38,136 nt of DNA from Bdellovibrionales bacterium GWB1_55_8 (GTDB lineage: Bacteria; Bdellovibrionota; UBA1018): positions 32,366-70,501 of the forward strand of contig MEPR01000021.1 in the NCBI GenBank assembly GCA_001769835.1, written 5' to 3'. Made by a program: the position numbers and the translations under genes. The notes under the pieces were generated by a model. It was not told the DNA's origin. It searched no databases and saw only the letters and a list, made by a program, of their open reading frames with translations. How positions within the stretch are numbered: position 1 is the stretch's first letter; each line of letters starts with the position of its first letter. Positions 729-10,879 of this stretch are shown here, one piece after another.

Positions 729-3700
729 TCAGCTGCAGCCCATGCTGTTGCCGCAGTTCAAGCATTTGTAGCAGGCGCCGTTTCGCACGGTCGTGTGGCC
801 ACAGCTGTCACAAGGAGGCGCGTCGCCCATCATCTCAGCGAGATGTCCCGATTGTGCTGATACGGCGACGGTCGCCGCTTCATGGGCGATGATCTTGGAC
901 GGTTCTTTCGGATACACCTGGGAGGCGGCACCTTTTTCGGCGGTGAGATCCACGGCGGGCTTCACTTGAACGAAATCCGTCCTTCCGAGGTATTCCATAC
1001 CGACAACGCGGAAAATGTAATCCACGATCGAGGTCGCCATCTTCACGTTCGGGTGCCCCTCCACGAAACCTGAGGGCTCGAAGCGCGTAAAGGTGAACTT
1101 ATCGACGAACTCCTTGAGCGGCACCCCATATTGCAGTCCCAGACTCACGGAAATCGCAAAGCAGTTCATCATGGAACGATACGCAGCGCCCTCCTTATGC
1201 ATGTCGATGAAGACTTCTCCAAGCGTTCCATCCTCATACTCACCCGTACGAAGATAGACCTTGTGTCCGGCGACGGACGCTTCCTGCGTGAAGCCCATGC
1301 GCTTGGCCGGGAGCTTGCGACGGCTCGGCTTCAGAGCCTGCTGCGGATCAACTGAAGCGGCCGATGAGACAACCGTTGCGGCGACGACCTGCGGAACATC
1401 AGTCTTCTCTTCCGTCTTTTTATCGCTCTTCGCCGAAAGAGGCTGCGACAATTTGCATCCATCCCGGTAAAGAGCGATTGCCTTCAGACCCTTTTTCCAG
1501 GCCTGATAATAAATATCGGCAATTTCGTCCACCGTGGTTTCGTTCGGGACGTTTACCGTCTTCGAGATCGCGCCCGAAAGGAACGGCTGAACAGCCGACA
1601 TCATGGACACATGGCCCATCGGTGCGATGAATCGCTTGCCCTTGATGCCGCACTTGTTGGCGCAGTCGAATACCGGCAGGTGCTCATCGCGAAGATGGGG
1701 AGCGCCTTCAATGGTCATCGTACCGCAGATCGCCTCGTTGGCCTCGGCCAGCTGCTTTTCCGTCATGCCGGACCAGCTGAGCAGGTTGAACGTGGGCTTC
1801 TCGAACTCCGAAACCGGAACACCAATGCGTTTCAGCATCTCATCACCCATACCGAAACGGGTGAAAGCGCTGGTGAGCTCAAAAGTTCCCGGAAGTCCTT
1901 TTTCAATCTTCGCGATCTCCGCAGTGGTCAGACCCAGCTTCGCGAGTGATTCACGATTCACGTGAGGCGTACCTTCGAGGTTCATCGCGCCCAGAAGATA
2001 ACGGATGATGTCCGAGATCTGCTGATCCGTATAGTTCAGGTTTTTCAAAGCCAGTTGAACGGACTGGTTCACGATTTTGAAGTAGCCACCGCCAGCAAGC
2101 TTCTTGAACTTGACGAGGGCGAAATCCGGTTCAACGCCGGTGGTATCGCAATCCATCAAGAGACCGATGGTTCCCGTAGGAGCCAGCACGCTCACCTGTG
2201 AATTACGGAACCCATGCTTCGCCCCCAGTTCCAGGGCGAGATCCCAATCCTCTTTCGCGGCTTTCGTCAGCTCAGCCGGCACCTTTGTCGCATCGATCTG
2301 GGTGGCAGCATCGCGGTGTTTCGCGATGACCCGAAGCATGGCATCCCGGTTCTTCTCATATCCATCGAACGGACCCATGACCTTGGCTTCTTCAGCACTG
2401 ACGGCATAAGCATGCCCCGACATGATCGCTGTCAAGGATGCGGCCCAGGCACGGCCTTCGTCGCTGTCATAAGGAATGCCCATCAACATGAGCAACGTTC
2501 CAAGGTTCGCGTAACCGAGACCGAGCGGGCGATACTCATAAGAATTCTTGGCGATTTTTTCGGTCGGGTAACTCGATAGGCCGACGAGAATTTCCTGCGC
2601 GATGATGAATACGCGGGAAGCCCTGCGATAAGCTTCAATGTCAAAGCTTCCATCCTTGTTCAGGAACTTCACGAGATTCAAGGAAGCCAGGTTGCAGGCC
2701 GTGTCGTCCAGGAACATGAATTCCGAGCAGGGATTGGATGCGTTGATTCGATCCGTCCCGAGGCAGGTATGCCAATCGTTAATGGTGGTATCGAACTGGA
2801 GTCCCGGATCCGCACACGCCCAGGCAGCTTCAGCGACCATCTTCCAGAGATCTTTGGCCTCATACGTATCGATGATTTCGCCATTCGTCCGAGCGCGCGT
2901 ATGCCACTTCCCGCCCGTTTCCAGGGCCTTCATGAACTCATCCGTGACACGAAGTGAATTGTTCGCGTTCTGGCCTCCGACTGTTTTGTAGGCTTCACCA
3001 TTGAAGTCAGAACTGTAGCCCGCCGCAATCAAAGCGGCGACTTTCCGCTCTTCACGGCTCTTCCAGGTGATGAAATCCACGATCTCGGGATGATCCATCT
3101 CAAGACAGACCATCTTGGCCGCGCGCCGGGTGGTTCCACCGGATTTCGTGGCTCCCGCGCCTTTATCGAAGACTTCGAGGAAGCTCATCAGACCGGAGGA
3201 GAGTCCCCCACCCGAAAGCTTTTCCTGCCTGCCTCGGATCTTCGAGAAATTGGTGCCCGTGCCCGAACCATACTTGAACAGGCGGGCTTCATTTTTAACG
3301 AGCTGGAAAATGGACATCAAATCATCGTCCACTGACTGAATGAAACAGGCTGAACACTGGGGACGCGAATAAGCGTTCTTGGTTTCCACAAGACGACGAG
3401 CCGCAGGATCCCACGCAAAGCTGCCGCCAGTGCCTTCAATTCCATACTGGTGATAGAGGCCCAGATTGAACCAGACCGGCGAATTGAACGCGCCCATCTG
3501 ATGAATGAGAAGATAGGAAAGCTCGTCTTCGAAAACCTCGGCCGTTGCCGCGGAGAAGTAGCCCATTTCTTCGCCTGCGGTGCTGAGCGTATGCGCGAGG
3601 CGACGGACGACCTGGCGGATGGATGTCTCGTGATTCGTGACGGGGACACCGGCTTTGCGGAAGTACTTGGAGACCAGAATGTCCACCGCGAGCTGACTCC

Positions 3701-4001
3701 AGGCGGCTGGAACTTCCACGTCCTTCATTTCGAAAACGCTCCGACCTTCCGTATCCTTGATCTTGGAGGAGGACTTCACATACTCAACCACTTCCAAGGG
3801 GCGTTGGCCGCGTTCGTGAAGGTCCTGGGTGAAATAGCGATCCACACTCACGACGGCAGCCGCTGACCGCTGCGGTTCAGTGCGGCGGGTCGTTTTTTTC
3901 ACCTTCCCGACTTTGGTTGAAAGGACATCCCCGAACGGGAGTTCCGAAACGTTTTTATCGACATTCAAATTCACTGGCGTCTTCTCCACAATCTTCTCCA
4001 T
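729..4001 (-). CDS. nrdJ: Vitamin B12-dependent (class II) ribonucleoside-diphosphate reductase
   Basis: This enzyme reduces ribonucleotides to deoxyribonucleotides for DNA synthesis, with adenosylcobalamin as radical generator, and works with or without oxygen. The 1090-residue protein has the class II core: a FNSPVWFNLG block, the glycine-rich GSGTGTNFS region, the NPCSEFMFLDDTACNLASLNL active-site segment and PTGTIGLLMDCDTTG. The C-terminus is a zinc-ribbon-like tail with two CxxC pairs (CDSCG and CYKCLNCG), which in the family carries electrons to the active site. The start is the ATG before EKIVEKTPVN. A palindrome resembling an NrdR box lies about 150 bases upstream, so NrdR repression is likely. 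No NrdAB or NrdDG gene is in the window. Confidence 0.96.
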   Translation of the reverse strand: MEKIVEKTPVNLNVDKNVSELPFGDVLSTKVGKVKKTTRRTEPQRSAAAVVSVDRYFTQDLHERGQRPLEVVEYVKSSSKIKDTEGRSVFEMKDVEVPAAWSQLAVDILVSKYFRKAGVPVTNHETSIRQVVRRLAHTLSTAGEEMGYFSAATAEVFEDELSYLLIHQMGAFNSPVWFNLGLYHQYGIEGTGGSFAWDPAARRLVETKNAYSRPQCSACFIQSVDDDLMSIFQLVKNEARLFKYGSGTGTNFSKIRGRQEKLSGGGLSSGLMSFLEVFDKGAGATKSGGTTRRAAKMVCLEMDHPEIVDFITWKSREERKVAALIAAGYSSDFNGEAYKTVGGQNANNSLRVTDEFMKALETGGKWHTRARTNGEIIDTYEAKDLWKMVAEAAWACADPGLQFDTTINDWHTCLGTDRINASNPCSEFMFLDDTACNLASLNLVKFLNKDGSFDIEAYRRASRVFIIAQEILVGLSSYPTEKIAKNSYEYRPLGLGYANLGTLLMLMGIPYDSDEGRAWAASLTAIMSGHAYAVSAEEAKVMGPFDGYEKNRDAMLRVIAKHRDAATQIDATKVPAELTKAAKEDWDLALELGAKHGFRNSQVSVLAPTGTIGLLMDCDTTGVEPDFALVKFKKLAGGGYFKIVNQSVQLALKNLNYTDQQISDIIRYLLGAMNLEGTPHVNRESLAKLGLTTAEIAKIEKGLPGTFELTSAFTRFGMGDEMLKRIGVPVSEFEKPTFNLLSWSGMTEKQLAEANEAICGTMTIEGAPHLRDEHLPVFDCANKCGIKGKRFIAPMGHVSMMSAVQPFLSGAISKTVNVPNETTVDEIADIYYQAWKKGLKAIALYRDGCKLSQPLSAKSDKKTEEKTDVPQVVAATVVSSAASVDPQQALKPSRRKLPAKRMGFTQEASVAGHKVYLRTGEYEDGTLGEVFIDMHKEGAAYRSMMNCFAISVSLGLQYGVPLKEFVDKFTFTRFEPSGFVEGHPNVKMATSIVDYIFRVVGMEYLGRTDFVQVKPAVDLTAEKGAASQVYPKEPSKIIAHEAATVAVSAQSGHLAEMMGDAPPCDSCGHTTVRNGACYKCLNCGNSMGCS

Positions 4002-5125: not shown

Positions 5126-5419
5126 ATGGAAGACCTCGCTTCAAACATGTCTCATTCCGCCCATGTAGCCGAAATATTGAAAGCAGTGGCCCACCCGCTG
5201 CGAATCAGGATTGTGGCCCTGCTCTGCCAAAAAGAAGAGCACGTTAACGGTCTGGCGGATAAACTCGGAGTGAACCAGGCGATCGTTTCTCAGCAGCTTC
5301 AGATACTGAGGATGCGGCGCCTTGTCGGAGCAACCCGAGTGGGTGGGTTCGCGCATTACAGAATTCTCGAACCTCAGCTCCGCAATTTGATGAAGTGCAT
5401 GGAGAACTGCTCAGCATGA
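5126..5419 (+). CDS. ArsR-family regulator, candidate persulfide or thiol sensor
   Basis: This is a 97-residue winged-helix repressor of the ArsR/SmtB family. It shows HPLRIRIVALL, the recognition segment LGVNQAIVSQQLQILRMRRLV and the wing ending in AHYRIL. It lacks the metal-binding CxCxxC of arsenic or cadmium sensors. Its three cysteines are Cys34 (ALLCQ) and Cys91/Cys95 in the last helix. That layout resembles SqrR/BigR, which sense reactive sulfur by linking a helix-2 cysteine to one in the last helix; the spacing here is 57 or 61 residues against about 66 in those proteins. It is the first gene of the operon and couples to the next by an ATGA overlap. The Shine-Dalgarno is weak. An alternative ATG lies at 5147. 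Confidence 0.85.
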   Translation: MEDLASNMSHSAHVAEILKAVAHPLRIRIVALLCQKEEHVNGLADKLGVNQAIVSQQLQILRMRRLVGATRVGGFAHYRILEPQLRNLMKCMENCSA

Positions 5420-7650
5420 AGAAGCTCACCCGACGGGATTTCATTAAAATCAGCGCAGCCGGAACAGGAGCTCTTGCTGTCACCTCCGGCCTCGGAACGA
5501 AATGGTGGGGGTTGGACGGCAATTCGATTCCCGACCCCGCGACTGATGGCGATCAGGTGGTCCCCACCTTCTGTGAAATCTGCTTTTGGAAATGCGGCGT
5601 CCTGGCGCATGTGAAAAACGGTGAAGTGACGAAGCTCACCGGAAACCCGGCGCACCCGCTTTCCAATGGAAAACTCTGTCCTCGCGGTGCCGGCGGAGTG
5701 GGAATGCTCTACGACCCCGACCGCCTTAAAAAGCCCTTGCTCCGCACGAAAAAGCGCGGAGAAGAAGTGTTCTCGGAAGTGGACTGGGGCACAGCTCTCG
5801 ACAAGGTCGCGCACGAACTCGACCTCGTCCGGAAAAAACATGGCCCCGAAGCACTAGCCCTTTTCACACATGGATTCGGCGGCTCCTGGTTCACCCAGCT
5901 CATGAAGTCCTACGGCTCACCGAATATCGGCGCCCCTTCCTATGCGCAATGTCGTGGCCCTCGTGAAGCGGGCTACTTGCTGACCTTCGGTTCAGCCCTG
6001 GGTTCGCCCGAAGGTATTGATATCAAAAATGCCCGCTGCATCACGCTGATCGGAAGTCACCTCGGCGAAAACATGCACAACACGCAGGTCCAGGAATTCG
6101 CGGATGCGCTTGATTCCGGTGCGCAGCTGGTTGTTGTCGATCCCCGTTTTTCGGTGGCTGCCGGCAAAGCTCGTTACTGGCTGCCGATCAAGCCCGGAAC
6201 CGATATCGCGCTTCTTCTGGCCTGGATGCACGTCATCGTGACGGAAAAGCGCTATGACGTGGATTATCTCGCTAAACATGCCGTGGGCTTTGATGAACTC
6301 AAAGCGCACGTCGCGGACAAAACTCCTGAGTGGGCTTACCCCATCACCGGAATCAAACCGGAACTCATCCGCGAAACCGCGCGTTTCATTTCAGGCTTCA
6401 AACCCGCTTCGCTGATACATCCCGGAAGGCACGCGACGTGGTATGGTGATGACAGCCAGCGCGCGCGGGCCATGGCGATCGTGGCCGCGCTTCTCGGAAG
6501 TTACGGCCGCAAGGGTGGCTACATCGCGCATCCGAAAATGAAGCTTCCGCCGTTTCCAGGACCCGCCTCGAAGCACAAACCTCGTCCTCCGGCGGACAAA
6601 CCTAAAGCCGGCGGCTATCCGATCGCCGACGAAGTTCTTGCCTCTGGCCTCTGCGAAGCGACGATGTCCGGCAAATCCGAGTACGACATCAAAGCCTGGC
6701 TCGTTTACGGGACGAATCTGATTCAGTCGCTTCCGAACGCGGCCGAAACGATCCGCGCCATCCAGGCTCTCGATTTCATCGCGACGATCGACACCATGCC
6801 CGCAGAAATCTGTGGCTGGAGCGACGTCGTGCTGCCGGAGTGCACGTACCTGGAGCGTGACGACGACATCTACGCAGCCAGTTACAAACAGCCGTTCCTT
6901 GCCATTCGTCAGCAGGTGATTCCTCCCCTGTACGACTCGAAACCAGGATGGTGGATCGCAAAAGAACTCGGGCAACGCCTGGGCCTTGGCGAAAATTTCG
7001 CGTGGCACGACGCCCGAAATCACGTTCACAAGAGGATCGACCTGGGCGGCTATGACTGGAACGAGTTGACACGCACGGGTGTGATTCTCGGGAAAAAGGA
7101 GCCGGTTTGCGAAGAAGAAGGTCTAATCCCCTCTTTTGGAACTGAAAGCGGGAAGATCGAACTGCACAGCGCCGCTCTCAAGAAAATGGGGTTTGATCCC
7201 ATCCCGAACTTCTACCCGCCAGAGGAGCCACCTCCCGGCATGTTCCGGTTGCTGATGGGCCGCTCCCCCGTTCACACCTTTGGTCGGACCACGAACAACC
7301 GCATTCTGCTCGAGAGCTATCCGGAAAATGAGGTCTGGATCAACGCCAGCATCGCGAAAACAATCCCGGTACTCGGACGCCCCTTGAAATCAGGCGATAA
7401 GGTCGTGCTCGTGAATCAGGACGGCGCGCGTTCGAATTCCGTGAAAGTAAAGGTCACCGAACGCATTCGCGGCGATTGCGTGTATCTTGTCCACGGCTTC
7501 GGACACACAGCTCAAGGTCTTACGCTTGCGAAAGGGAGGGGCGCTTCCGATAGCGGGTTGGTGACCCGCTACAAGATCGACCCTCTCATGGGTGGAACCG
7601 GAATGAGTGTTAATTTTGTACGACTGGAGAAGCCGGAGGTGAAATCGTGA
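5416..7650 (+). CDS. Tat-exported molybdopterin oxidoreductase, PsrA/PhsA-like catalytic subunit
   Basis: This is a 744-residue catalytic subunit of the DMSO-reductase superfamily, most like polysulfide/thiosulfate reductases. It begins with a Tat signal (LTRRDFIKI, then AAGTGALAVTSG), so it folds before export and acts in the periplasm. A [4Fe-4S] motif follows with Cys53, Cys56, Cys60 and Cys88. Cys179 (SYAQCRGPR) is at the position of the molybdenum ligand. The later GRSPVHTFGRTTNN and C-terminal beta-barrel segments bind the molybdopterin cofactor. The ATG at 5416 was chosen because it starts the Tat peptide and overlaps the regulator's stop codon. The ferredoxin and NrfD subunits downstream complete a PsrABC-type complex. 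Substrate and direction (polysulfide, thiosulfate or tetrathionate, reduction or oxidation) cannot be read from sequence. Confidence 0.9.
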   Translation: MKKLTRRDFIKISAAGTGALAVTSGLGTKWWGLDGNSIPDPATDGDQVVPTFCEICFWKCGVLAHVKNGEVTKLTGNPAHPLSNGKLCPRGAGGVGMLYDPDRLKKPLLRTKKRGEEVFSEVDWGTALDKVAHELDLVRKKHGPEALALFTHGFGGSWFTQLMKSYGSPNIGAPSYAQCRGPREAGYLLTFGSALGSPEGIDIKNARCITLIGSHLGENMHNTQVQEFADALDSGAQLVVVDPRFSVAAGKARYWLPIKPGTDIALLLAWMHVIVTEKRYDVDYLAKHAVGFDELKAHVADKTPEWAYPITGIKPELIRETARFISGFKPASLIHPGRHATWYGDDSQRARAMAIVAALLGSYGRKGGYIAHPKMKLPPFPGPASKHKPRPPADKPKAGGYPIADEVLASGLCEATMSGKSEYDIKAWLVYGTNLIQSLPNAAETIRAIQALDFIATIDTMPAEICGWSDVVLPECTYLERDDDIYAASYKQPFLAIRQQVIPPLYDSKPGWWIAKELGQRLGLGENFAWHDARNHVHKRIDLGGYDWNELTRTGVILGKKEPVCEEEGLIPSFGTESGKIELHSAALKKMGFDPIPNFYPPEEPPPGMFRLLMGRSPVHTFGRTTNNRILLESYPENEVWINASIAKTIPVLGRPLKSGDKVVLVNQDGARSNSVKVKVTERIRGDCVYLVHGFGHTAQGLTLAKGRGASDSGLVTRYKIDPLMGGTGMSVNFVRLEKPEVKS

Positions 7651-8198
7651 TCTTTGGCGAAAAGAAGCGATATGTGATGACCGTCGACACAAAACGTTGC
7701 GTGGGTTGCAATAGTTGCGTGATCGCCTGCAAACAGGAAAACCGGCTTCCACCGGGGGCCACGCGCGATTGGATCGTGACCGAAACCCAGGGAATATTTC
7801 CCGCGCTGTCACAGGAGATCCGTTCCGAACGCTGCAACCATTGCAGCAAATCACCGTGCGTCAGCGCGTGCCCGACCGGGGCGAGCTATGTTTCCACAGG
7901 CGGAATCGTCCTCGTGAATCATGACAAGTGCACCGGCTGCAAGGCATGTATCGCGGCATGTCCTTACGAGGCACGTTACGTCCACCCCAAAGGGCATGTC
8001 GACAAATGCACCTTCTGTATTCACCGGGTGCAGAAAGGCGGACTCCCCGCCTGCGTCGAAACATGCCCGACGAAGGCGCTTCGATTCGGAGATCTCAACG
8101 ATTCAGAAAGCGAAGTTGCACGCCTCCTCAGTTCACGAGAATGGAAGACGCTGAACCCGGGAACCGGAGCGCGTCCGAACGTTTATTTCCTCATTTAG
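7647..8198 (+). CDS. Four-cluster ferredoxin electron-transfer subunit, PsrB/PhsB-like
   Basis: This 183-residue iron-sulfur protein should pass electrons between the molybdenum subunit and the membrane subunit. It has four cysteine groups for four cubane clusters: CVGCNSCVIAC, CNHCSKSPCVSAC, CTGCKACIAAC and CTFC with CVETC. It has no signal peptide of its own, as is usual when such subunits are carried out with the Tat-exported partner. The start is a GTG that overlaps the previous stop (GTGA), a coupling used elsewhere in this window. The cluster count and 20-kDa size fit DmsB/PsrB/NrfC relatives. Confidence 0.92.
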   Translation: MIFGEKKRYVMTVDTKRCVGCNSCVIACKQENRLPPGATRDWIVTETQGIFPALSQEIRSERCNHCSKSPCVSACPTGASYVSTGGIVLVNHDKCTGCKACIAACPYEARYVHPKGHVDKCTFCIHRVQKGGLPACVETCPTKALRFGDLNDSESEVARLLSSREWKTLNPGTGARPNVYFLI

Positions 8199-8209
8199 GA
8201 GTCATGGGC

Positions 8210-8725
8210 ATGAAAGATTCAGAAAAATTCTGGCATCCTTACGTAGCTGGAGTGGCACTCGGACTGGTGCTTCTTTCCTCGCTCGTTCTCATGAGCAAAG
8301 GTCTCGGGGCTTCGGGAGCCGCGCACCGGCTAGGGGTCGCCGCATTGAACTCGGTGGCTTCGTCTCACGTTGACGCAAGTGCGGCCATGTCGGGCTTCAA
8401 AGCCGACGGTGCAAGTCCGCTTGACGACTGGCTGATCTTCGAAGTGCTTGGCGCATTACTGGGCGGCTGGGTCGCCGCCTATTCCGCCGGGCGTTTGAAA
8501 TTGGGAATTCAGAAAGGACCGAACGTTTCTACGAAGAAGCGCCTTGTTCTGGCGCTTACGGGCGGCATTATCATGGGAATTGCCGCGCGACTCGCACGCG
8601 GGTGTACCTCAGGACAGGCGCTTACCGGGGGGGCGATGCTTTCGGCCGGCAGCTGGTTGTTCATGTTCTCGGTTTTCGCGGGCGGTTATGCACTCGCGAA
8701 ACTGACGAGGAGACAATGGTTATGA
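8210..8725 (+). CDS. YeeE/YedE-family membrane protein, first half-transporter
   Basis: This 171-residue integral membrane protein belongs to the YeeE/YedE (sulfur transport, TsuA-related) family. After an N-terminal hydrophobic helix it has the conserved cysteine motif ARLARGCTSGQALTGG inside a membrane segment. In TsuA, such cysteines line the thiosulfate path. Full-length members carry two such halves; here the second is the next gene. The ATG at 8210 was chosen over 8204 because AGGAG at 8197-8201 is then eight bases away. Its place between the ferredoxin and the membrane subunit suggests movement of a sulfur compound tied to the redox enzyme. Substrate is inference. Confidence 0.85.
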   Translation: MKDSEKFWHPYVAGVALGLVLLSSLVLMSKGLGASGAAHRLGVAALNSVASSHVDASAAMSGFKADGASPLDDWLIFEVLGALLGGWVAAYSAGRLKLGIQKGPNVSTKKRLVLALTGGIIMGIAARLARGCTSGQALTGGAMLSAGSWLFMFSVFAGGYALAKLTRRQWL

Positions 8726-9945
8726 TATTCCCAATCGACGCTCTCCTGACCTCGCAAAGGGAACTGGGGCTGATAATGGCCGTCCTCATAGGTTTCGGCT
8801 TCGGATTCGTTCTGGAACGCGCGGGCTTTGGACGCGCGAAAAAGCTCGCGGCGCAGTTCTACCTCTATGACATGACCGTTTTTAAAGTGATGTTCACCGC
8901 GATCGTAACGGCCATGCTGGGCGTGATCGTGCTTTCCGGCTTCGGAATCGCGGATCTGAAGGCGATCTCTGACTATGCGACCAGTACGACCCTGCTCTGG
9001 CCGATGCTGGTCGGCGGTCTCCTGCTTGGCGCAGGATTCATCATCGCAGGGTATTGTCCGGGAACGTCCATAGTCGCGAGTGCTTCGGGCAATCTGGATG
9101 GGGTTGTTGCCTTTGCGGGCGTGGTTTTGGGTACGGTGCTTTATTCTGAGGGCCTCGATGCGTTCACCTCCCTGTCAACCTTTCACAACAGCAGTAATTT
9201 CGGTCACGTTTATCTCTATGATCTGCTTGGAGTGCCGGCTCCCCTCTTGGCGCTAGCGGTAACCCTGATGGCTGCAGGGTGTTTCATGGGCGCGGAGAAA
9301 GTGGAGCAGCTGTTCCGCGCGAAGCTTCACGGCTCGTCCGATGGAATCGTGGATACCCGTTCCAATCCGGTTCTAAGCGGTGCGCGTCGGCTGGCTTTTG
9401 GAAGTTTTGCGGGCCTCGCGGCACTCGGGCTCGGTTCCCTCCTGATGACTCAGACTCCGGTTTCGGCCGCTGCCGCAGGCAGCGTCACGGCGACAGAAGT
9501 CGCGCGCAAAGTACTCGAACAACCTTGGGATCTCAGAATCATTGACTTGAGAGCCCTGGAAGCCTGCACCAGAGTACGAATTCCCGGTTCGGAATGCGTT
9601 CCGATGGAAAAGCTCGGCGAACTGGATCTTCAGAATGCACCCGGAACCCAACTGCTCGTACTCGTGGGCGAAAGCGATTTGACAGAAGTTCCGCCTGCCG
9701 CGCGGGATTATCCGGGAAGGATAAAACTCCTCAGCGGCGGATTTTCGAATTGGAAGTCCTTTGCCCTGAGCGCACCGATTTTTCCGGGAAATGGCGCGAG
9801 CGAAGCGGAGATCGAGGAATTCCGATTCAGAAGCACCTTGCACGCGACCTTGACCGGAATGAAACAAGCCCCCCCACCTCCGCCTGCGCCGTCATCAGGA
9901 GGCGGATTCAAGAAAAAGAGTGGCGGCGGCGGTTGCAGCGGCTGA
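8722..9945 (+). CDS. YeeE/YedE half-transporter fused to a cysteine-less rhodanese-like domain and a Gly-Cys tail
   Basis: This is a 407-residue protein. The first ~230 residues are a YeeE/YedE membrane domain with the second family motif IAGYCPGTSIVASASGN. After a last membrane helix (LAFGSFAGLAALGLGSLLM), preceded by arginines that suggest an inside-to-outside crossing, comes a rhodanese-like fold (LRIIDLRALEA, RIPGSECVP, LLSGGFSNWKSF). The usual CxxGxR active loop is replaced by LLVLVGESDLTEVPP, so classical sulfurtransferase chemistry at that site is unlikely. A Pro-rich linker leads to SGGGFKKKSGGGGCSG, with Cys405 third from the end, like the GGCGG arm of SoxY. The start at 8722 overlaps the previous stop (ATGA) and lies nine bases after AGGAG. 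The domain probably faces the periplasm (inference). Confidence 0.85.
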   Translation: MIFPIDALLTSQRELGLIMAVLIGFGFGFVLERAGFGRAKKLAAQFYLYDMTVFKVMFTAIVTAMLGVIVLSGFGIADLKAISDYATSTTLLWPMLVGGLLLGAGFIIAGYCPGTSIVASASGNLDGVVAFAGVVLGTVLYSEGLDAFTSLSTFHNSSNFGHVYLYDLLGVPAPLLALAVTLMAAGCFMGAEKVEQLFRAKLHGSSDGIVDTRSNPVLSGARRLAFGSFAGLAALGLGSLLMTQTPVSAAAAGSVTATEVARKVLEQPWDLRIIDLRALEACTRVRIPGSECVPMEKLGELDLQNAPGTQLLVLVGESDLTEVPPAARDYPGRIKLLSGGFSNWKSFALSAPIFPGNGASEAEIEEFRFRSTLHATLTGMKQAPPPPPAPSSGGGFKKKSGGGGCSG

Positions 9946-9958
9946 ACTGGAGAGAGCA

Positions 9959-10879
9959 ATGAACGAAATAGATCTGATCCGCACAAATCCTTCCATCGAC
10001 CCACAGCTGCATATCTGGGGGTGGGAAATCCCGGTATATCTGTTTCTCGGTGGGATGGCGGCAGGAGCAATGATCCTTTCCGCTAGTCTCGGGAAAAAGA
10101 ACAACTCCACCTGGGTTCGCTTACTGCCTTTTGCCGCTCCAATCCTGCTTTCAATCGGCATGGGAGCGCTTTTCCTGGACCTTGCGAACAAGCTGCACGT
10201 CTACAGGTTTTATCTCGCGTTCAAATGGAGTTCTCCGATGTCCTGGGGCGCATGGATTCTCTTGGGCATTTATCCGGTGGCGATGCTTCTTGGCGTTCTG
10301 CGACTTTCGCCGTCGGAGTTGAACTGGCTGGGTAACAGGCTTCGCTCCGCAAACGTCCTTGCCTCTATCAGACAATTTGCCGAGGAACACGAAGGACTGA
10401 TCCGGGCAGCGAACATCGGCTTGGGCGCTGCACTCGGAATCTATACCGGGATTCTGCTGAGCTCTACGGGTCGGCCAGTATGGAACTCGGCGATTCTCGG
10501 TCCGTTGTTTCTCGCGTCCGGGATTTCAGCCGGGGCGGCACTCGCGCTTCTGTTCCCGATGAAAGACGAGGAACACCATTTTTTCCGTCGCTGGGACATG
10601 GCCGCGATAGGAATCGAACTTCTCCTTATCCTCATTTATCTGCTTGGTTTGGCGACCATCAGCGGCCCTGATGGTGCCCTGGCGAACGAGGCATTTCTGG
10701 GCGGAAAGTACACCGCGCCTTTCTGGTCGCTTGTCGTTCTGGGCGGCCTGCTCGTGCCTTTTACCCTGAAACTGATCGAGTCAGCGCGCGGCCTGAAACC
10801 GACCTTGGTTGCACCCGTATTGGTTCTTTGCGGTGGTTTTGCCCTTCGCTGGATCCTGGTTTACGCCGGACAGGCGTAA
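9959..10879 (+). CDS. NrfD/PsrC-family membrane subunit
   Basis: This 306-residue polytopic membrane protein should anchor the molybdenum and ferredoxin subunits and exchange electrons with the quinone pool. The N-terminus (LHIWGWEIPVYLFLGGMAAGAMIL) is the characteristic first helix of NrfD/PsrC proteins. About eight hydrophobic helices follow, ending in APVLVLCGGFALRWILVYAGQ, another family hallmark. The ATG at 9959 has GGAG six bases upstream and lies 13 bases after the YeeE-rhodanese gene. It is the last gene of the six-gene sulfur operon; no terminator is visible after it. Confidence 0.9.
   Translation: MNEIDLIRTNPSIDPQLHIWGWEIPVYLFLGGMAAGAMILSASLGKKNNSTWVRLLPFAAPILLSIGMGALFLDLANKLHVYRFYLAFKWSSPMSWGAWILLGIYPVAMLLGVLRLSPSELNWLGNRLRSANVLASIRQFAEEHEGLIRAANIGLGAALGIYTGILLSSTGRPVWNSAILGPLFLASGISAGAALALLFPMKDEEHHFFRRWDMAAIGIELLLILIYLLGLATISGPDGALANEAFLGGKYTAPFWSLVVLGGLLVPFTLKLIESARGLKPTLVAPVLVLCGGFALRWILVYAGQA

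Follow-up and report, generated by a model that had tools for sequence, protein, structure and literature searches.

A Cys- or Sec-tipped arm on a cysteine-free rhodanese-like domain attached to two-part YeeE-type transporters: a likely periplasmic sulfur carrier

Introduction

What is the role of a rhodanese-like domain that lacks its catalytic cysteine, ends in a Gly-rich arm with a cysteine close to its tip, and is fused to one half of a membrane transporter within an operon for a molybdenum enzyme? The question is raised by a gene of Bdellovibrionales bacterium GWB1_55_8 found in the window, i.e. the whole stretch of 38,136 nucleotides that was analysed, and it touches on a step, the hand-over of sulfur between the periplasm and YeeE-type transporters, which PMC11582611 calls poorly understood. 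A sequence-only reading of the locus had compared the arm with that of SoxY and had proposed a tethered carrier that hands substrate between the transporter and the molybdenum enzyme. With a carrier joined to its transporter and a single testable residue at the tip, the hand-over step would become directly accessible.

The operon and its gene products

The operon encodes, in this order, an ArsR-type regulator, a Tat-exported PsrA-like molybdoenzyme, an Fe-S protein, YeeE half A, the fused protein and an NrfD protein:

5126..5419, forward strand: ArsR/SmtB-family regulator with a Cys pair (LLC ... KCMENC); Pfam HTH_5, E 4.2e-10
5395..7650, forward strand: PsrA-like molybdopterin oxidoreductase with Tat signal; Pfam, PDB match 2vpw
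7647..8198, forward strand: PsrB-like 4Fe-4S protein; Pfam Fer4_11, E 8e-25
8195..8725, forward strand: YeeE/YedE half A (PmpA-like); PF04143, E 7e-21
8716..9945, forward strand: YeeE/YedE half B (PmpB-like) with extra transmembrane helix, rhodanese-like domain without catalytic Cys and Cys-tipped arm; PF04143, E 9e-16
9959..10879, forward strand: PsrC-like NrfD membrane subunit; PF03916, E 4e-41

A PsrABC/PhsABC-type set, formed by the PsrA-type catalytic subunit, the Fe-S subunit and the NrfD subunit, is therefore complete in the window, and the Tat-exported molybdenum enzyme noticed on first reading is indeed a PsrA-type molybdoenzyme of the same operon. Its top PDB match is the Thermus thermophilus PsrA-type enzyme 2vpw (E 8e-220, 737 residues aligned), with which it shares, in the alignment, the Cys of SLC/AQC-x-x-PRE; polysulfide or thiosulfate is the putative substrate. 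The Mo, Fe-S and NrfD subunits are those of the Thermus PsrABC polysulfide reductase, but the window operon also holds a transporter and the arm.

Both transporter halves belong to PF04143 and bring one pore Cys each, as in the PmpAB and YedE1E2 pairs, and by analogy the PmpAB-type YeeE/YedE pair is suggested to be a putative transporter of thiosulfate or zero-valent sulfur. Half A, whose start codon is not fixed (an ATG near 8204 is likely), aligns to the C-terminal half of the PF04143 model, and its pore Cys lies in an ARGCTSGQ motif. Half B differs from YedE1E2, PmpAB and SoxT, as far as the available portions of their descriptions go, by the addition of a transmembrane helix, a rhodanese domain and a Cys/Sec tip.

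The regulator scores above the cut-off of the NCBIfam HTH_metalloreg model and below that of the sulfite-sensing BigR model (E 6e-14); from the sequence, its cysteines in LLC and KCMENC are reminiscent of sulfane-sulfur sensing repressors. An Rfam scan of the window gave no match.

Anatomy and predicted topology of the fused protein

Counted from the ATG at 8716, the fused protein has 409 residues, and its terminal cysteine is residue 407; the number 405 that it had been given applies only with the alternative ATG at 8722 as start. Otherwise the earlier description of reading frame, domain and tail holds:

9055..9057, forward strand: pore Cys114 (GYCPGT); invariant in the alignment
9370..9444, forward strand: extra transmembrane helix, residues 219-243, with positive charges before it; secondary structure of the model, charge count
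9478..9855, forward strand: rhodanese-like domain without catalytic Cys, residues ~255-380; AlphaFold2, PDB matches, alignment
9868..9942, forward strand: flexible Pro/Gly/Lys arm ending GGGGCSG; sequence, low tail pLDDT, conservation
9934..9936, forward strand: terminal Cys407 codon (TGC); invariant column C407 in the 50-row alignment

The protein ends in ...QAPPPPPAPSSGGGFKKKSGGGGCSG followed by the stop codon, with the Cys third from the end; the tail of the product of the 8716-9945 open reading frame is ...APPPPPAPSSGGGFKKKSGGGGCSG.

Against the window copy alone, the Pfam rhodanese model PF00581 gives an E-value of 0.024, below the cut-off, and it matches most relatives with E-values of 1e-16 to 1e-10. 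The AlphaFold2 model, a check that had been called for, has a pLDDT of 85 overall, of about 95 in the confidently predicted rhodanese region and low values in the tail; its PDB matches (Foldseek) are mostly rhodanese domains, with TM-scores up to about 0.74 on the target, and no whole-chain YeeE match for the full-length model is among the PDB matches listed. Taken together, the relatives and the structure prediction make the rhodanese fold certain. The active-site loop is cysteine-free, as first read, throughout the family: the catalytic position is never a Cys in the 50 fused homologues, where it is Ser, Gly, Asp, Ala, Thr, Asn or Lys, nor in the 15 split ones (see below), where it is Ser, Gly or Ala. 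Two loci that seemed to retain the rhodanese Cys, L045 and L058, were rejected, their Cys being one residue before the catalytic position.

The side of the membrane on which the domain lies was predicted from charge counts (positive-inside rule), not from reporter fusions. In the fused forms the Lys plus Arg count is 0.24 for the N-terminus (outside), 2.30 for the first loop (inside) and then 0.42 (outside), 0.76 (inside, with no acidic residue), 0.88 (outside) and 3.24 (inside), the last value, that of the loop before the extra helix, being the highest among all loops. This distribution supports the periplasmic side already favoured by the sequence-only reading, so that the rhodanese domain and the tip of the fused forms are predicted to be periplasmic. 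In the split forms there is one N-terminal anchor, and the charge counts on its two sides are not decisive alone.

Conservation of the tip in fused and split forms

Lack of conservation of the terminal Gly-Cys tail in orthologues had been set beforehand as a finding that would refute the carrier proposal. A scan of GTDB species genomes gave 474 relatives, for which 80 loci were fetched; these contain 62 distinct complete fused proteins, i.e. 63 minus one duplicate (L010 and L017 are one contig). A Cys is found among the last three residues in 61 of the 62, in the form G-(x)-C plus zero to two residues, and the sole exception (L083) has an in-frame UGA at the tip. The tip is kept in relatives from the same GTDB family as the window copy, and G-x-C-type tails occur in only 3 of about 590 unrelated open reading frames of the same loci (about 0.5%), on which ground chance or lineage drift was rejected as the origin of the tip. 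The tip is constant while the linker, nearly always rich in Lys/Arg, is otherwise very variable. By record title, members are found in at least nine phyla, Anaeromyxobacter strains included, the 80 loci coming from Bdellovibrionota, Myxococcota, Gemmatimonadota, Acidobacteriota, Verrucomicrobiota, Chloroflexota, Ignavibacteria/Bacteroidota, Planctomycetota, Latescibacterota, KSB1 and others. Surveys of whole phyla agree: the Cys is at the end in 27 of 28 loci of Bacteroidota (the remaining one being a truncated frame) and, for Myxococcota, in each of the 27 tails that could be read. UGA counts among the Myxococcota matches were rejected as Sec codons, being ordinary stops after a Cys-bearing tip.

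The tip variants include GGCGG, GGCSG (window), GGLCS and EGC. The exact GGCGG end known from SoxY is found in a few members (L023, L030, L032 and L065), and other members end in EGC or GGC, with the Cys as the last residue. No SoxY model was found among the Pfam matches, whether for the window protein or for the scanned relatives, and no SoxZ among the neighbouring genes in the window operon. Since there is no SoxY domain or SoxZ and many tips are EGC or GGC, the resemblance to SoxY is convergent: of the SoxY-like arm that had been proposed, the Gly-Cys tip stands, and this tip is not in general the SoxY motif as such.

Half B is short in 20 loci, stopping directly after the YeeE part. These were at first sight homologues without a tip, an interpretation that was rejected, the tip being on the following gene: in 17 of the 20, the next gene encodes a separate protein of about 200-220 residues, made of one N-terminal helix, a rhodanese fold and a tip that is usually KKKKKEGC. 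The AlphaFold2 model of the split form has a pLDDT above 90 in the domain and a low-confidence tail, and rhodanese domains make up most of its PDB matches. Since fused and split forms both have the tip, it is a feature of the rhodanese-like domain. L090 is also a split form, with an in-frame UGA in the linker (L090:3378-3380); it was rejected as a tip Sec codon, for the KKKKKEGC tip is intact after the UGA, which is probably a sequence error. In L081 half B is short and the locus runs off the contig, and in L052 there is no rhodanese, and a small Lys-rich signal-peptide protein ending in SGC is found.

As side observations, the small protein of L052 (L052:7974-8216), which follows the Mo and Fe-S genes of the YeeE cluster, is made almost only of Lys, Ala and Glu, ends in KKGKKEASGC and is possibly the arm alone; a carboxymuconolactone-decarboxylase/AhpD-like gene is often found 3' of the split rhodanese gene (L047, L051, L064 and L087).

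Selenocysteine at the tip and in the pore

The tip of L083 reads GGG-TGA-GGC-TAA. In a class-wide search (Chloroflexota-class; 396 genomes, 72 with matches), four more genomes have a UGA in the column of the tip Cys, with one Gly codon and then a stop behind it, bringing the total to five, which form one clade in the tree (support 98/94). Loss of the Cys of L083 by error or nonsense change was rejected on the basis of these four genomes and of the two-sided changes in the hairpin described below. The L083 genome encodes selA (E 2e-141), and a tRNA-Sec whose anticodon is TCA was found in it, the search for the latter covering this one genome (G058); selA is present in all five UGA-tip genomes and absent from 4 of the 15 Cys-type Chloroflexota-class genomes tested.

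Each of the five copies has, 19-20 nt after the UGA, a hairpin of 7 bp whose 3-nt loop begins with GU or GG; among 24 Cys-coded relatives no hairpin of this kind (7 bp, 3-nt G-loop) occurs at the same distance (some have longer stems elsewhere). Two of the seven pairs are changed on both sides with pairing kept, and the pairing is destroyed when the partners are slid. Bacterial SECIS elements have been modelled with a loop of 3-9 nt, a stem of 4-16 bp, a G in the first two loop positions, a spacing of 16-37 nt and a minimum free energy (MFE) of at most -7.5 (PMC13188914). The tip hairpins of the five genomes satisfy this model, with MFE values of -10.6 to -15.7 kcal/mol; because the z-score of the L083 hairpin in its 61-nt context is not significant, the case for a SECIS element at the tip rests on position, conservation and covariation.

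In three of the five genomes (L108, L109 and L111), which nest inside the Sec clade, the codon of the pore Cys is UGA as well (GGF/Y-UGA-PGT) and is followed by the hairpin GGTAGC-GGTC-GCTACC. This hairpin falls within the coding sequence, does not vary among the three copies and is a non-dominant fold in two of them; for these reasons Sec in the pore is less firmly supported than Sec at the tip. Both YeeE-family Sec, in the PmpA-type motif GUxSG, and rhodanese-family Sec have been listed (PMC13188914); in the proteins described here, by comparison, the Sec positions are the UPGT motif of half B and the C-terminal end of the arm. The Sec-bearing family is not covered above cut-off by any NCBIfam model.

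The evidence for Sec comes from a single clade with at least one metagenome-assembled genome among its members. In selenoproteins, Sec takes the place of nucleophilic, redox-active cysteines, and for this reason the tip is very probably catalytic and almost certainly a working nucleophile; the Cys/Sec exchange thus marks the likely catalytic atom ahead of experiment.

Instead of carrying sulfur, the arm could be a thiol-disulfide or persulfide reductant, acting on a disulfide or persulfide of the transporter or of the enzyme, in keeping with the use of Sec in redox catalysis, with the predicted location of the tip in an oxidizing compartment and with the C-terminal redox arms of other enzymes. 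A single Cys or Sec is found on the arm, though, with no conserved partner Cys in the rhodanese domain, and what the conserved neighbours deal with is sulfur compounds, not thioredoxin-type electrons; we hold this alternative to be unlikely.

Enzyme partners of the module

Genes for Mo, Fe-S and NrfD proteins adjoin the fused forms of class A and the split class. Class B forms a conserved cluster with a cytochrome of the octaheme tetrathionate reductase (OTR) family (TIGR04315 above cut-off, E 4e-165; 1sp3, E 1.5e-145; eight CxxCH motifs) and a multiheme/cytochrome b membrane protein. The module plugs in beside two unrelated periplasmic enzyme systems, PsrABC-like and OTR-family. The proposed hand-over between transporter and molybdenum enzyme agrees with the PsrA gene of the operon and was too narrow, the same module being found also beside a heme enzyme; the Cys-to-Sec exchange, the split form and this second, unrelated partner strengthen the case past the first reading. 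The OTR family in turn gains a candidate physiological partner. In lucinid symbionts a divergent soxY directly adjoins the octaheme tetrathionate reductase gene (PMC11237559), so that a Gly-Cys carrier next to OTR has an independent precedent.

The presence of PsrABC genes recalls Wolinella Sud, a periplasmic rhodanese-like protein that supplies polysulfide sulfur to PsrABC (PMC10092268). The domain described here is likewise rhodanese-related, predicted to be periplasmic and found beside PsrABC, and it might, like a scavenger of this kind, bind polysulfide on its arm and feed PsrA or OTR only, the transporter fusion being a mere membrane anchor, a role for which the split forms have a transmembrane anchor only. 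Unlike Sud, the fused protein is attached to the membrane, tethered to a YeeE-type transporter, with its active-site Cys gone and the nucleophile on a C-terminal arm. Moreover, the transporter halves adjoin even beside OTR and in the split forms, and pore Cys and tip are both UGA in one lineage, which ties the tip to the pore. A function confined to scavenging is accordingly quite unlikely.

Weak similarity of the pair to YedE putative selenium transporters and the ArsR-family regulator of the operon would fit carriage of selenium or arsenic species by the YedE-like pair and the tip. This is very improbable, given scores below cut-off for all selenium-transporter models, conserved operon partners from sulfur-enzyme families and the Cys-type genomes without selA noted above. 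Terminal cysteines can also be modified or cross-linked, but a structural role of Cys407, as a disulfide dimer link or lipid attachment site, is scarcely credible, a swap to Sec with a dedicated SECIS element being unexpected for such a residue.

Proposed mechanism and comparison with known carriers

The C-terminal domain is likely to be a periplasmic, membrane-tethered sulfur carrier that exchanges its cargo with the PmpAB-type pore. Anatomy, conservation, Cys/Sec exchange, predicted topology and gene partners come directly from the computation; from them we infer that sulfur is probably carried, as one of the chemical species named below, and that the flow is probably inward. The rhodanese fold, without a catalytic Cys of its own, would serve as scaffold or binding platform, and the nucleophile (Cys, or Sec in one lineage) would be borne on the tip of a tail that is both mobile and positively charged. 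The tip would take sulfane sulfur (as persulfide) or thiosulfonate from, or offer it to, a periplasmic sulfur oxidoreductase, which would be the PsrABC-like enzyme in the window and the OTR-family cytochrome elsewhere, and would exchange it with the pore cysteines (Cys114) of the attached YeeE transporter; the cargo moving between enzyme and pore is possibly sulfane sulfur or thiosulfate.

Import of zero-valent sulfur has been described for the YedE1E2 pair, which depends on a Cys in both of its halves (PMC10812762), and PmpAB has counterparts only of cysteines two and three of TsuA (PMC11582611). On the simplest view, the arm would provide with its tip the outermost Cys that two-part YeeE transporters, matching only these two, lack, and the tip would thus substitute for the first, periplasmic-entrance Cys. 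An extra carrier Cys beside the pore is known from TsuA-TsuB (YeeE-YeeD), where the Cys of YeeD is a fourth one, on the cytoplasmic side, that receives the cargo (PMC11073785). YeeD is, however, a TusA-family, cytoplasmic protein, whereas the added Cys is here on a rhodanese scaffold and on the predicted periplasmic side.

The names of the PsrA and OTR families point to reductive chemistry, and the transporter family points to import. As a counterpoint, PsrA and OTR reductases act on periplasmic sulfur compounds, so that import is not obviously needed; reduction and import would be compatible with each other if they concerned different sulfur atoms, one being reduced and a second imported. The tip sequence is, furthermore, not uniform, and the exact chemistry may differ among members.

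The carrier is analogous, not homologous, to SoxY, the function of whose tip is stated in PMC6067878. With the SoxY of SoxYZ it shares a Cys close to the C-terminus, a Gly-rich flexible tip and a periplasmic location (predicted here), and it differs from it by the rhodanese scaffold, the membrane anchor or transporter fusion, the Lys-rich linker and tips that are mostly not GGCGG. By sequence, the family is that of a YeeE half with an added domain, and neither SoxY nor an active rhodanese nor Sud. No model of NCBIfam 20.0 or Pfam scores above cut-off for the fused family beyond the general transporter and rhodanese models, and no description of it was found in open-access full-text literature, which is weak evidence of absence. 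Swinging-arm sulfur carriers are already known, and these searches suggest that the tethered form on a dead rhodanese, with its strongly supported active residue, is previously undescribed. It seems somewhat probable that the proteins form a class not found described, in which a dead rhodanese scaffold with its nucleophile on a Lys/Gly arm, either fused with a two-part YeeE transporter or lying next to it, serves as a plug-in for two unrelated respiratory sulfur enzymes, and which in one lineage, with Sec at tip and pore, would amount to a selenium-based sulfur relay across the membrane.

Two further observations concern related or similar tails. In Anaeromyxobacter, a second, paralogous Mo/YeeE cluster adjoins the first (L019:10003-15203; L020:763-2685), and in L020 it includes a split rhodanese ending in KKKISGGCG. 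Elsewhere in the window, the product of 729-4001 (reverse strand), ribonucleotide-reductase-like by eye only, has the C-terminus CLNCGNSMGCS, another Cys-bearing end that is unrelated to the arm.
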